Virus record (IMG/VR): IMGVR_UViG_3300047377_000344
Span: 1 to 30,194 of that record
Source of the DNA: a virus
Direction: 5' to 3' (one strand)
DNA: 30,194 nt
The translations under genes and the position numbers were made by a program. The notes under the pieces were generated by a model, which saw only the letters and a program-made list of their open reading frames with translations, did not search any database and was not told the DNA's origin. Each line of letters opens with the position of its first letter. The stretch's first letter is position 1. Shown here piece after piece: positions 2,654 to 9,119 of this stretch.

Positions 2654-2787
2654 CACCCCAACCCCTAGTCGGGCGAGAAAACGCCTCAAATCAAACGCTA
2701 GACACCTTGCGGGAGGGGTGGGGAGCGAATCAACCCCCACAAACCCCCACATTTTGGAACATTTTTGTCGATACTCATAATTCTCTA

Positions 2788-2815
2788 TTGACATAGAACA
2801 CCAAAGCATTATTAT
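2788..2815 (+). promoter_or_regulatory. near-consensus sigma70 promoter
   Basis: TTGACA (2788-2793, perfect -35), a 16-base spacer, and TATTAT (2810-2815, five of six -10 bases). A start near 2822 would give a leader of about 27 bases containing the AAAAGGAG ribosome-binding site of the gene at 2849. It probably drives the five or six genes up to 4684. Confidence 0.8.
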
Positions 2816-2848
2816 CGAACGCGCATAGCAAACAAAAGGAGTAAGCAA

Positions 2849-3013
2849 ATGCAATTAAAAGAATGGCCAGCAACAGAAAACTCACTGACTCAAGCAGTGA
2901 GAGAAATGATTACCCACGAGATCGACATCATTCACGAGAGTGATTGGTGGAAAGAGATGATTGATGAAGCCGTAGATCGCAGGCTTGCTGAGCGCAAACA
3001 GGAGGCTAAGTAA
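2849..3013 (+). CDS. 54-residue acidic phage peptide
   Basis: A short gene directly under the 2788-2815 promoter. AAAAGGAG (2834-2841) lies 7 bases before ATG 2849, the best ribosome-binding site in this part of the window. The product begins MQLKEWPATENSL and is mostly helical, rich in Glu/Asp, with a WW pair (residues 32-33) and a basic/Ala C-terminus ending RKQEAK. The stop at 3011-3013 is two bases from the next start. No family recognised. Promoter, ribosome-binding site and tight spacing all support it despite its length. Confidence 0.78.
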   Translation: MQLKEWPATENSLTQAVREMITHEIDIIHESDWWKEMIDEAVDRRLAERKQEAK

Positions 3014-4362: not shown

Positions 4363-4684
4363 CCTCATTTCGTCAACAGACCCCTACGAGAAAGAAACTC
4401 GTGGGGGCATGAGAGATAACTCATCCACCATGCACCAACACAAAGTTGAGCGCGAGTTCACTTGCTTGTGGTGTGGTGTGAAGTTCAAGAGCACGCAATC
4501 ATCGGCCAAGTACTGCTGTCAGGCGCATCGAAGCAAAGCCTTTCGAGCAGTGAGACGCATTGATAAGCCAAAGCGGATCACTCAACTGAGGCGTAGAGGC
4601 AAGGGTTTCAGACCACCGATTGCATTGGTTTGTTACCATGCGTCCTCTTCACCACCATCAGATGGCTCTTCGTCCGATTCGTAA
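4355..4684 (+). CDS. zinc-finger protein (CxWC...YCCxxH type)
   Basis: The core C37-LW-C40, C54/C55 and H58 with a following basic helix (KAFRAVRRIDKPKR) is the small treble-clef-like finger common in phages and bacteria (form CxxCGxxF...AKYCxxxCRxxxxR). It probably binds DNA or RNA. The start is uncertain: ATG 4355 overlaps the previous gene but has no ribosome-binding site; ATG 4409, just after the 4381-4407 hairpin, would remove 18 residues and keep the finger. The last 52 bases run antisense to the end of the terminase small-subunit gene, giving a Ser/Pro/Asp tail. Confidence 0.7.
   Translation: MDDLISSTDPYEKETRGGMRDNSSTMHQHKVEREFTCLWCGVKFKSTQSSAKYCCQAHRSKAFRAVRRIDKPKRITQLRRRGKGFRPPIALVCYHASSSPPSDGSSSDS
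4381..4407 (+). other. 10-bp hairpin near the zinc-finger start
   Basis: CCCCTACGAG, loop AAAGAAA, CTCGTGGGGG form a 10-bp stem with one T-G wobble, directly before an in-frame ATG at 4409. No T-run follows. It could modulate initiation at 4409 or act as an attenuator. Confidence 0.5.
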
Positions 4685-5301
4685 TCATACTCTTCCTCGC
4701 CATCTAGGGGCCCCGCTGCGGGCTCCTCATCTTCGGGCTCCTCGAACTGCGCATCCTCGAACTGTGCATCCTCAACATCCATCACGCTGTCATCCACCAC
4801 TGCAGCGCGCAAGCCGGGCATCAACTGATTTTTGTCGAGCAGAGCATTCAGCCTGGCCTCAACTTCTGATCGATCCATCTGGTCGATACGACCAAGCTTG
4901 ATCTCCTTCTTTTCAATCATCAAACCCGCAAGCTTTGCTCTGCCCAACTCTGCTGTGACTGCTGCACCATACGATCCATCTTCAACGGCCCTGTCTCTGA
5001 TCATCTGCAAGTCACGCGCAACCTTCTCAAACGTGATCTCATACTTCTTCTGCTGCGCTTCTTGGAGCTCACGAATCTTCATCTGCAGGTTCATGTATCT
5101 GGGATCATGCAAAAGCACATACGCAATCTGTCTTGGGTTTGAGTAGCCCGCTCGATGTGCAGCTTCGGTATTAGTCAAATCGTGATATACATAGTGCTGA
5201 ATGAACGCCTGCTGCTTCTTCGTGAACGGCTTCTCCTTGTGCCTCTCAGGCAGACTTCGCTTTGGGTTATTCAACATATCCACCGCTTGATTTTTCGCCA
5301 T
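4633..5301 (-). CDS. terS: terminase small subunit
   Basis: A 222-residue protein matching the phage terminase small subunit (Terminase_2 type), which recognises the packaging site and brings DNA to the large subunit. Residues 26-60 carry the signature FTKKQQAFIQHYV, then TNTEAAHRAGYSNP, a helix-turn-helix; residues 70-160 are helical for oligomerisation. The C-terminal 50 residues are extremely acidic and include a direct EDAQF/EDAQF repeat (177-186), as expected for a tail contacting the large subunit. The large subunit is not in the window. ATG 5301 is preceded by AGAAGAG within a 23-bp tandem repeat. Its 3' end overlaps the + strand zinc-finger gene by 52 bases. Confidence 0.88.
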   Translation of the reverse strand: MAKNQAVDMLNNPKRSLPERHKEKPFTKKQQAFIQHYVYHDLTNTEAAHRAGYSNPRQIAYVLLHDPRYMNLQMKIRELQEAQQKKYEITFEKVARDLQMIRDRAVEDGSYGAAVTAELGRAKLAGLMIEKKEIKLGRIDQMDRSEVEARLNALLDKNQLMPGLRAAVVDDSVMDVEDAQFEDAQFEEPEDEEPAAGPLDGEEEYDYESDEEPSDGGEEDAW

Positions 5302-5349: not shown

Positions 5350-5426
5350 GCTTCTCATCCTACAAAAAAAATTTTTTCTTTTCTTCCCCCCCCTATTCTA
5401 AGAAGGGAGTAAGGGTGTATCCCGTA

Positions 5427-5452
5427 GGGGAGATATGTATATCTCTCTCCCC
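5427..5452. other. inverted repeat GGGGAGATAT...ATATCTCTCTCCCC
   Basis: The core AGATAT-GT-ATATCT is a perfect 6-bp inverted repeat, extended by GGGG and CCCC arms with a small offset. An outer pair, AGAAGGGAG (5401-5409) and CTCCCCTTCT (5447-5456), gives a competing fold. It may be an operator or terminator associated with the iteron region. Confidence 0.5.
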
Positions 5453-5595
5453 TTCTTTAGAAGTGCACCTCGTGCACCTTGCAGTGCCCTTTAAAATCAA
5501 TGACTTAGGTAGGGGTAGGTGCAAGGTGCACGGCACTGCACGCTGCACCTCGTGCACCTACCTCGACTTCCTTATAAATCAATGACTTAGCACAC

Positions 5596-5604
5596 TTATC
5601 CACA
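5596..5604 (+). promoter_or_regulatory. perfect DnaA box TTATCCACA
   Basis: The nine bases are identical to the strong E. coli DnaA box. It lies inside the iteron array, 1 base before a GGGTAGGTGCAA iteron arm. One exact 9-mer is not proof of DnaA binding, but its placement is suggestive. Confidence 0.6.
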
Positions 5605-5685
5605 GGGGTAGGTGCAAAACAAAAAACACCCCTTGCACCTACCTCTTTTGGGTAAACCGGCTGTTCCGCGAACCTCGAAACCACT

Positions 5686-5922
5686 TTAACTTTCACTTGT
5701 AAGTTCACTCCTTATGATCTTCTTAGGCGCCCCATGATCTACCCTATGATCTGTGATCAGCAGGGCATCTCGACCACAGTTTCTGCACCCTTTTCTAGGG
5801 TAGTCTACGAGGTAATATTGTGCCCCGCAGACAAGGCATTCGATGTACCATTCATATACCTGCAATACGTTTTCTTGTAATCCGCTTACACTCAATCCGC
5901 TTGTTTCTTTCTCTTTAATCAC
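5686..5922 (-). CDS. small zinc-ribbon protein
   Basis: A 78-residue protein with C29-x2-C32 and C46-x2-C49, a typical zinc ribbon, flanked by aromatic residues (YEWYIECLVCGAQYYLVDY). The start is a GTG at 5922 that overlaps the stop of an upstream open stretch (GTGA); no clear ribosome-binding site is seen, which fits coupling, but the true start could be internal. It lies between the PP-loop protein and the iteron region on the strand of terS. Function unknown; nucleic-acid binding is likely from the fold. Confidence 0.58.
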   Translation of the reverse strand: MIKEKETSGLSVSGLQENVLQVYEWYIECLVCGAQYYLVDYPRKGCRNCGRDALLITDHRVDHGAPKKIIRSELTSES

Positions 5923-6861: not shown

Positions 6862-8898
6862 TCATTCCCAAGGCTTTGTCATTTCATTCGATTCCAAATA
6901 GTGCCACACAGCCATGCCTGGCTTGGCATACGTTTTGACCACTGCGCCTTTGTACTTCTGCACATACGACACCGCTCTCATCGCTGCTCTTTCACCACTG
7001 TTCATGCCAGCTTCACTGAGGGCTTCTCTTGCTAACACCTCAAGCTCTTTGCGCATGTAAAACTTTGTGCTGCTCATGGCATTGACGATCACACTGGCTA
7101 TCTTGACCTCATCCTCCTCACTGAGTTGAGGCTTGACGTTGCGCGGTGTGAAGTCGTTGACTTTCCACAGGCCATCATTGAAGTCGAAACTGGCCAGATG
7201 TTCTTTGGGTTCCATGGCGTTGCGCGCTTCGTAGAAGACAGACACATCAGGTTTTTCGCCACTGAGTTTCACGCCGCTATCGAACCAACCGGCGAATACA
7301 CTGCCGCCTCGTGCAGACATGAATGACTTATCATCTGCACGTTCTTTTCCTGTATGGTGAGCGATGATCACGCTGATACCGTGCATCTCAATGAGCATAT
7401 CGACACGATCAAGGAGTTTGCGTATCTCTGTGTTGGAGTTCTCCTCGCCATCAAAGAAGTTGATGATAGGGTCTATCAGCACGATGTCGGGCTTGTGAAA
7501 CGCTATCTCATCCGAGAACGCCTGTATGTCTTGGTCTTTCATCAGGTTCTTGCGTAGCCTGCCGCTGATGATCAGGTTGTTGTGCCCCATCGATATCAGA
7601 TCTTGGTCAAACTCAAAGCGCCTGAAGTAAGTGTCGATCCTGCGCTTCAAGAACTCTGCGATGATCTCTGCTTGGAACCACATCACCTTCAATGGTTTGC
7701 TGAATTCTTCGCCCATGAAGTCTGTGCCAGTGGTCGCCCCTGCTGCGAAGGCGCCAAGCCAGTTTGACTTACCTATCTTTGGTTTGCCGAGGAGCAGCAC
7801 TCGGCTCTTCTGGAAGATGAATGCATCGCCCCAGAACTGTTCGATGCCATCGTCGGTCATGTCAGACCATGTGTCTGCACTGAACGGCTGCAGTCCTAGC
7901 GGCCCTGACTGTGCCTCTTCATCCCCATCGCGCTTGAGTTCATCAAGCGGGTCTTCTTGTGACTGTATCTCTTTGAGATCTTCGTTGATCTCTGTCTGCC
8001 ACTTCGATGTCTGCCATGCCATGATGCCTGCATCGACATCATCGGGGTGCCGTTTGATGTGCCCGTTGACGATGCTGATGGTGGTACGAGTGACCTCGAT
8101 CAAGTCCATGGGTGGCACACAGGATTGATTCCAGTCTTGTGCCTTGATCAGCACCTCGCGCATACCCCAGCCTTCCTTGACCCACTTGCCGACTAGACGT
8201 GCTAGTGTGTCGTTGCGACTGCCTTGTTCTTTGGGTTCCTCTGTCAGCTTCTCGCGTATGTTTTCGACTTTGCTGCCGGTGTTGAACACATGTACTTGTT
8301 GTATGTCGGCTTCGCCTAGCAGTGGCAGGTCATCCAGACCAGACACGCCGTATGACTGGTCGCACTTCATGTGGTATCCCACGCTGGGTGACACCATGAT
8401 GTATCCGCCATCGCCACGGACATCCAGTTTGTTCTGGCCTACGCTGTTGCGGATCAGCGGGTTGGCACCACCGATAGAATAGAAGTAGTGCTTCCCGCCT
8501 TTGGGCGAAGTTTGTGTTAGTGGTGTTCGCGTGATGCCGCCTGCATCGATCCAGTTCACGGCATCGTCTGAGTCTGCATCGACCACAGCGAAGGATATGC
8601 CTGTGATTGCTGCCCAGTTAGCGGTGGGGTACTGAGCATGCCACTGGGTGATCTCATCTTGTGACGGCTGAATTTTTTGGTAGTGCTGCCATTTGACTCG
8701 TGGCGTCTTGGCCCACTTGGCCTTGAGATCTTCCTCGGTATCAAACGGATGACGTTGTCTGAAGTATTGTGGCACCACCTCGCTGGGTGAACCGCATGGG
8801 ATGATGTGCATCCCGTGTTCCCACATGGTGTGCAGGAGTTCTTCTTTTGCTTCGGGTGACATGGGCCCGTCTGAATCGGAAGATAAGAACGGCATCAT
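6862..8898 (-). CDS. bifunctional prim-pol primase and RepA-like helicase
   Basis: A 678-residue replication protein. Residues about 25-195 form an archaeo-eukaryotic prim-pol domain with the catalytic DAD (107-109), a GGKHYFY histidine motif (134-140) and DVRGDGGYIMVSPS (159-172). A short PriCT-like helical segment follows (GSRNDTLARLVGKWVKEG region). The C-terminal half is a RecA-fold hexameric helicase: Walker A GKPKIGKS (371-378), Walker B DIVLIDP (471-477) and a sensor-like IIAHHTGK (511-518). It would prime and unwind at the phage fork. I chose ATG 8898, which overlaps the upstream stop as TGATG; a TTG seven codons earlier is less likely. No DNA polymerase gene is nearby. Confidence 0.88.
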   Translation of the reverse strand: MMPFLSSDSDGPMSPEAKEELLHTMWEHGMHIIPCGSPSEVVPQYFRQRHPFDTEEDLKAKWAKTPRVKWQHYQKIQPSQDEITQWHAQYPTANWAAITGISFAVVDADSDDAVNWIDAGGITRTPLTQTSPKGGKHYFYSIGGANPLIRNSVGQNKLDVRGDGGYIMVSPSVGYHMKCDQSYGVSGLDDLPLLGEADIQQVHVFNTGSKVENIREKLTEEPKEQGSRNDTLARLVGKWVKEGWGMREVLIKAQDWNQSCVPPMDLIEVTRTTISIVNGHIKRHPDDVDAGIMAWQTSKWQTEINEDLKEIQSQEDPLDELKRDGDEEAQSGPLGLQPFSADTWSDMTDDGIEQFWGDAFIFQKSRVLLLGKPKIGKSNWLGAFAAGATTGTDFMGEEFSKPLKVMWFQAEIIAEFLKRRIDTYFRRFEFDQDLISMGHNNLIISGRLRKNLMKDQDIQAFSDEIAFHKPDIVLIDPIINFFDGEENSNTEIRKLLDRVDMLIEMHGISVIIAHHTGKERADDKSFMSARGGSVFAGWFDSGVKLSGEKPDVSVFYEARNAMEPKEHLASFDFNDGLWKVNDFTPRNVKPQLSEEDEVKIASVIVNAMSSTKFYMRKELEVLAREALSEAGMNSGERAAMRAVSYVQKYKGAVVKTYAKPGMAVWHYLESNEMTKPWE

Positions 8899-9119
8899 CA
8901 CTGTACCCTTTTCACCCAATACACACCGTCATCGATGCGCCTTGACTTGATCTTCATACCCAGGCCGTAACCCGCAGTTCTGATCCCCCTAACTTCTTCT
9001 TCGGTTTTCACCGTTACTGCATCACCTACAGACATTTCGCTCAAAAGCTTTTGCCATTTGCCTGACCCTTTTGTAGGGTGTGGCGGCAAGGGTGAGTTCT
9101 TCTCGATCACATATTCCAT
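8898..9119 (-). CDS. small conserved phage protein (EKNSPLPP...VGDAVTV)
   Basis: A 73-residue basic protein with the order IEKNxPLPP, a short helix (WQKLLSEM), SVGDAVTV, then a helix and KIKSRRIDDGVYWVKRV. This small domain is found widely beside phage replication genes and its pattern suggests DNA binding; the function is not established to my knowledge. ATG 9119 has AAAGGAG about 7 bases upstream. It is the first gene of the leftward replication operon and its stop overlaps the primase ATG. Confidence 0.78.
   Translation of the reverse strand: MEYVIEKNSPLPPHPTKGSGKWQKLLSEMSVGDAVTVKTEEEVRGIRTAGYGLGMKIKSRRIDDGVYWVKRVQ

Follow-up and report, generated by a model that had tools for sequence, protein, structure and literature searches.

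What purpose is served by a cluster of short repeats that lies beside a terminase gene in an environmental phage? The window analysed here, a virus record of 30,194 bases that is a linear fragment, contains such a cluster in the noncoding stretch between terS and a small Zn-ribbon ORF (5686–5922), the array starting 162 bp upstream of the terS start codon. A first-pass annotation of this DNA had read the cluster as the iterons of a theta-type replication origin, with a cos/pac packaging site as the rival explanation.

A heptamer array upstream of terS

All eight AGGTGCA/TGCACCT heptamers described in that annotation, in two orientations, were recovered (Table 1), and a duplicated 16-mer (5464–5479 and 5544–5559) and a duplicated 13-mer, ATCAATGACTTAG, were both found where they had been placed. 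The clustering of the heptamer is well above chance: 16 copies are observed across the window against an expectation of 6.0 ± 2.1, a number reached in none of 100 shuffles, and the largest 7-mer cluster per 182 bp contains eight copies, as compared with three or four in 59 of 60 first-order Markov sequences and six in the remaining one. The array is not, as had been supposed, the only repeat cluster of this kind, as eight copies of CCGCAAG are found within 182 bp from position 2526. Noncoding clusters at 1117–1190 and 2526–2650 are made up of AGGCCGCAAGCC-type units, which are GGCC-GCAA-GGCC tetraloop hairpins. An Rfam search with the array as RNA gave no match. GC skew, which had been proposed as a check on the origin, does not inflect at the array but tracks transcription strand and gene direction; it was dropped as origin evidence.

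Table 1 Features of the array region and of the proposed initiator gene in the window
Feature	Position	Strand	Remarks
terS (Terminase_2, PF03592)	4633–5301	-	Array neighbour, not specificity partner
A/T homopolymer and pyrimidine tract	5362–5391		Adjoins terS
Second inverted repeat, GGGGAGATAT...ATCTCTCTCCCC	5427–5452		Terminator-like on + strand
Small hairpin/palindrome, CTTC-TTTA-GAAG	5452–5463		Abuts last iteron
Iteron array, AGGTGCA units	5463–5640	both	Three groups, split by two IHF-like sites; positions conserved in ~90 distinct related arrays
AGGTGCA units	5517–5523, 5524–5530, 5610–5616	+	
AGGTGCA units	5464–5470, 5473–5479, 5544–5550, 5553–5559, 5634–5640	-	
IHF-consensus match AATCAATGACTTA (WATCAANNNNTTR), copy 1	5495–5507	+	In array
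IHF-consensus match AATCAATGACTTA, copy 2	5577–5589	+	In array
Perfect DnaA box, TTATCCACA	5596–5604	+	Single copy in window
Noncoding block, GAAAGTTAAAGT.GTTTCGAGG	5673–5694	-	Far edge of array; conserved across 90-array alignment
Primase-helicase, 685 aa: prim-pol, PriCT-1 and AAA_25 (RepA-like RecA-fold)	6862–8919	-	Proposed initiator; Pfam PF09250, PF08708, PF13481
C-terminal winged-helix domain, residues 601–680	6880–7119	-	AlphaFold2 prediction, residues 590–685, mean pLDDT 86.8
Helix 3, residues 643–656	6952–6993	-	Proposed recognition helix; covariation with dialect
Candidate specificity residues	E643, 6991–6993; M647, 6979–6981	-	Helix 3, first two turns

Dialects of the heptamer

Relatives were collected by two protein scans of viral contigs, which gave 49 TerS-centred and 80 primase-helicase loci, and further scans added a clade at 60–66% identity; the evidence base is one of sequence comparison among metagenomic contigs, some of them short. 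Searching these relatives for the exact string AGGTGCA upstream of terS gave several copies or, often, none, while the DnaA box stays, and the region contains no copy at all in many relatives whose TerS is 87–98% identical. What the relatives without AGGTGCA possess is the array itself, position for position, in another spelling of the heptamer. We refer to these spellings as dialects: AGGTGCA, AGGGGCA, AGGGTCA and AGGTACA, with AGGTATG and AGGTATA rarer. All heptamer copies of an array switch together, 90 distinct arrays containing 865 units in their own dialect and 11 in a foreign one, with two or more foreign units in one array only. Of the heptamer conservation that was looked for in close relatives, therefore, the layout of the array is kept in other dialects while the exact AGGTGCA is absent in many. 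Since dialects explain that absence, exact conservation was abandoned as a criterion; it would have led to the proposed origin being wrongly rejected, which serves as a warning.

Sequence-wide drift would not produce concerted change of this kind, which would instead be expected of a trans-acting reader obliged to fit every site. A 67-aa ORF (5505–5708) that overlaps the array was taken as spurious because the iterons within it change wholesale.

The likely reader of the array

The gene for the primase-helicase is found 1.2 kb from the array, upstream on the terS strand and with two genes between. AlphaFold2 predicts a C-terminal winged helix (residues 601–675) comprising helices 601–614, 623–636 and 643–656 and a two-stranded wing, the full-length model being poor outside this domain (pLDDT 61). 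Structure searches with the winged helix returned generic winged helices only, with a best Z of 8.2 and no family assignment.

Column-by-column association with dialect across 58 distinct primase-helicases singled out residue 647, at which there is no exception: glutamine is found with GGGTCA (28 sequences), methionine with GGTGCA (18), arginine with GGGGCA (11) and lysine with GGTACA (1). Residue 643 ranks next, among few other columns, with asparagine or aspartate accompanying GGGTCA, glutamate or glutamine accompanying GGTGCA and likewise GGGGCA, and valine accompanying GGTACA. When more distant members are included, 82 of the 84 distinct combinations fit an assignment of each 643/647 pair to a single dialect; in the clade at 60–66% identity, NR and NK are found with GTCA, LK with TATA and VQ with TATG. 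The two misfits are L170 (EM with GGCA) and L237 (NQ with GGCA), and the pairing is also broken in L020, where a GTCA array lies next to a different helicase. All three are metagenome contigs that start inside the helicase gene, and they are possibly assembly chimeras. A rule drawn from residue 647 alone in 45 training sequences was right for 20 of the 26 cases held out, the six misses being two unseen dialects, two unseen pairs (NK and NR) and the two misfits.

No other protein tested behaves in this way. In a repeat of the analysis with eleven proteins, the excess MI/H was 0.86 at residue 647 and 0.65 at residue 643, compared with 0.31 or less in nine other proteins and 0.52 in an HTH protein for which only 12 sequences were available. 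TerS, a 73-aa protein, the Zn-ribbon protein, a PAPS-like protein, Sak4, SSB and three other ORFs were rejected as readers, as they have no column that tracks dialect, and the HTH protein was rejected likewise on the basis of its 12 sequences. TerS, the Zn-ribbon protein and the PAPS-like protein are encoded nearer to the array than the primase-helicase is, yet give no comparable signal.

These results bear directly on the possibility that the array is a cos/pac recognition site, with TerS binding the heptamers and packaging starting there. The array lies 162 bp upstream of terS, in a neighbourhood that the relatives keep, and in a second helicase family (see below) the array again precedes a terS, here a different, Sf6-like one, with two genes in between. 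Whatever protein reads the heptamers must, however, change with the dialect, and TerS is near-constant across dialects: that of a relative with a GGCA array (L019) is 98% identical to the window protein over residues 1–174, and among 90 TerS sequences no column tracks dialect, the best excess MI/H being 0.29. As the primase-helicase does change with dialect and TerS does not, the packaging-site explanation is disfavoured and we consider it very unlikely.

How often the dialect has switched was estimated from a tree built on primase-helicase columns 186–595, with the C-terminal domain left out. This tree requires 26 or more changes of dialect, and residue 647 also changes 26 times, with agreement in independent pairs of 8 of 8 for M-TGCA, 9 of 9 for R-GGCA and 11–12 of 13 for Q-GTCA; the switches may be module exchanges as well as new mutations. 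In one pair of sister phages (L117 and L118) there are no differences at 497 positions in the body of the protein and seven at the C-terminus (635–652), including E643N and R647Q, and every iteron changes from GGCA to GTCA. In another (L094 and L152), M647R with E643 kept is accompanied by a change from TGCA to GGCA, that is, in the first variable base only, and in a third (L301 and L304) R647Q is one of four C-terminal changes. The pairing would also make chemical sense, with E facing G:C, N or D facing T:A and V facing A:T at the fifth base, and M or K going with T and R or Q with G at the fourth. That dialect follows one or two residues of the primase-helicase suggests that this is the likely reader protein and that its recognition of the heptamers may obey a simple natural code.

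Arrays without a primase-helicase, which might belong to satellites, were represented by 20 loci that looked like truncated contigs or incomplete loci, none of them convincing. The C-terminal domain of the window primase-helicase had no match among cultured relatives, and in Rhizobium phage RHph_X2_26 a related helicase is present with no array seen. One relative of the primase-helicase (L152, JAAXIF010000089.1) comes from a contig of a Sphingobacteriales MAG, although the host link is uncertain and this may be a binned phage contig.

Accessory features and the proposed origin

The IHF consensus used here is WATCAANNNNTTR, and the duplicated 13-mer fits it, a match that, like the switching of dialects and the likely reader protein, had not been foreseen. 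At least one such match is found in all 90 distinct related 400-bp arrays and two are found in 72 of them, an enrichment of ~20-fold over these loci's background of 0.085 per 400 bp, with some of the N positions varying among relatives. A perfect DnaA box inside the array, also reported previously, is indeed present; as 0.14 copies are expected in the window and 13 of 100 shuffles contain one, the box by itself is weak evidence there.

Could DnaA nevertheless lead initiation, with the heptamers secondary? A perfect box is retained in 58 of the 90 distinct related arrays, but is missing or degenerate in the other 32, whereas iterons are present in all and switch with the phage protein. The window has this one perfect box and no DnaA-box cluster of the oriC type, and an origin led by DnaA seems to us scarcely credible.

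The A/T homopolymer and pyrimidine tract noted earlier on the terS side is also in place, with its A-tract retained in relatives, and is a candidate unwinding region. The small hairpin abutting the last iteron shows compensatory changes in relatives, where one arm reads CCTC (39), CTTC (26), CTCTC (18) or CTCCC (7) and the other arm always matches. The conserved block GAAAGTTAAAGT.GTTTCGAGG, which borders the array on its far side, is retained even in distant members.

On this evidence we propose, with a probability of about 0.83, that the region ~5360–5700 is the phage replication origin and that the heptamers are iterons read by the winged helix of the phage's own primase-helicase through residues 643 and 647. 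The earlier suggestion of an iteron-type theta origin thus gains support from repeats that are clustered beyond chance, conserved as an array and covarying in dialect with the recognition helix of the putative initiator; at the level of sequence, the two IHF-consensus matches, DnaA box and A/T tract also fit such an origin. The C-terminal winged helix would bind the heptamers, with helix-3 residues 643 and 647 facing the variable NN of AGG-NN-CA. Bending of the DNA, and help with melting beside the A/T-rich tract, would probably come from IHF bound to both 13-mers and DnaA bound to its box, after which the helicase may load itself, the fused prim-pol may prime and the region would fire as an origin. 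The missing skew inflection, the two misfits among 84 combinations together with L020, the 1.2 kb between array and helicase gene and the arrays lacking a perfect DnaA box count against this proposal.

The main remaining rival keeps this protein as the reader of the array but gives the binding another role, at an operator or a site of copy control or incompatibility, with replication starting elsewhere. Plasmid iterons serve copy control too, and the array has no skew inflection to mark a start; moreover, covariation reports co-adaptation with a DNA-binding domain only and leaves unspecified the step that is served. Against this, the iterons come together with IHF-like sites, an A/T tract and a DnaA box, a search of the array and its flanks found no sigma-70-like promoter, and arrays of this sort serve comparable helicases as origins (PMC7581432, PMC6092414). 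We therefore regard an operator or copy-control role as improbable.

A second helicase family

The exceptional contig L020 (1–3700) carries a window-type terS and a GTCA array joined to a different AAA_25 helicase of 26% identity, and is possibly a recombinant or a chimeric assembly. A scan with its helicase identified many phages with arrays of their own near the helicase gene (L333–L411), again with IHF-like sites and in dialects that include TGCGACAGT, TGCGTCAGT, TGCGCCAGT, TGCTCCAGT, TTCTCCAGT and TGCATCAGT. Among 33 distinct members the strongest dialect signals fall at residues 365–371, by position a predicted wing segment, with S369 in both TTC arrays and R370 in all but one of the six arrays that have T at position 4; in this small set, with phylogeny uncontrolled, these residues seem to carry specificity. 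Between the two families, the helicase C-terminal domains have no detectable sequence similarity.

In the second family the array is followed by DUF559-like and NrdR-like ORFs and then by the Sf6-like terS. Nearness to terS is therefore common to both families, although no signal in the terminase accounts for the dialects. The DUF559-like gene, a possible endonuclease, follows the array in several members (6543–6932 in L335, and equivalents). A cultured example of an AAA_25 helicase followed by an array is Rhodoferax phage P26218 (NC_029061.1, L413), in which TGCTACAAC/GTTGTAGCA units are found at 2663–3000, between gp43 and gp42 and upstream of terL; the available text of its genome paper does not mention an origin.

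Comparison with known systems

That a helicase or initiator reads cognate iterons is already known. The SaPI, PICI and Cch2 helicases are SF3/MCM- or D5-like, whereas the window protein matches the RecA-fold AAA_25 (RepA/KaiC-like) and Prim-Pol families. Common to both are a helicase, in some cases joined to a primase, with a C-terminal domain that reads short iterons near its gene, A/T-rich DNA and allelic variants; for the window protein, covariation and the predicted winged helix point to such a domain. The C-terminal domain of SaPI Rep and SCCmec Cch2 reads iterons near the helicase gene (PMC7581432), and for PICI Pri-Rep there are allelic variants, with iterons on either side of A/T-rich DNA (PMC6092414). 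The SaPI/PICI origin lies directly 3' of the helicase gene, in contrast to the separation seen in the window, though array and gene are adjacent in some members of the second family, L335 among them. The window is, moreover, a tailed-phage genome, and for SaPI/PICI the available text describes no counterparts of its DnaA box or IHF-like sites. The window system resembles SaPI/PICI Rep–ori in how it would work, without being classed as a member.

Another parallel is plasmid RSF1010 (RepA/RepB'/RepC and oriV), which has a RepA-type RecA-fold helicase, a primase and an iteron origin with hairpins. There the separate RepC protein binds the iterons, whereas in the window the reader seems to be fused to the helicase. 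P4 alpha is a primase-helicase that, like the window protein in our proposal, recognises its own origin iterons (ori/crr), and as far as known it belongs to a different helicase superfamily; at annotation level, no Pfam or PHROG assignment in the window points to P4 alpha. P4 alpha and its cognate ori are also mentioned in PMC6092414.

Covariation of initiator and origin has precedents. In PLE satellites, the RepA_N domain and origin iterons covary and are exchanged as modules, and the nuclease Odn of phage ICP1 targets the origin (PMC8263062). The window group resembles PLE in that an initiator DNA-binding domain covaries with origin iterons between relatives. For PLE, an origin-directed nuclease can select for change, and an origin-linked nuclease in the second helicase family would be of interest in view of Odn. 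The window group differs in that the whole RepA_N domain varies in PLE, in two classes, as against one or two helix-3 residues, at least four dialects and many switches, and in that the reader would be the primase-helicase itself. Iterons of closely related geminiviruses differ and match residues of the initiator Rep in the available text of PMC12548392, but these are ssDNA plant viruses with a rolling-circle Rep, an unrelated protein and mechanism.

What is distinct here is the type of helicase, its occurrence in a tailed phage, how many switches there have been and the reduction of specificity to two residues of one helix. Among open-licence papers, a two-residue code in a RecA-fold prim-pol/helicase appears to be new, although there may be a precedent that we have not seen.

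Implications

The proposed origin would link a set of environmental phages, so far uncharacterised, to a particular initiator and a particular site. The group also provides a natural data set in which a DNA-binding protein and some ten sites change specificity jointly, with at least 26 switches, a near-complete correspondence of residue to base and sister phages that are a handful of residues apart.

Why should the dialect switch so often? Tentatively, and as a possibility that we would not rate highly, tailed-phage origins may be split into exclusive dialects that have been switched repeatedly since exploiters or cutters of matching origins penalise whichever dialect is common. Each switch would then comprise one or two helix-3 residues and all of the iterons jointly, and the selection would come from satellites, from relatives that co-infect the cell or from nucleases directed at the origin. 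Two questions have become open to test: do dialects behave as incompatibility groups, and are parasites or competitors behind the switching?
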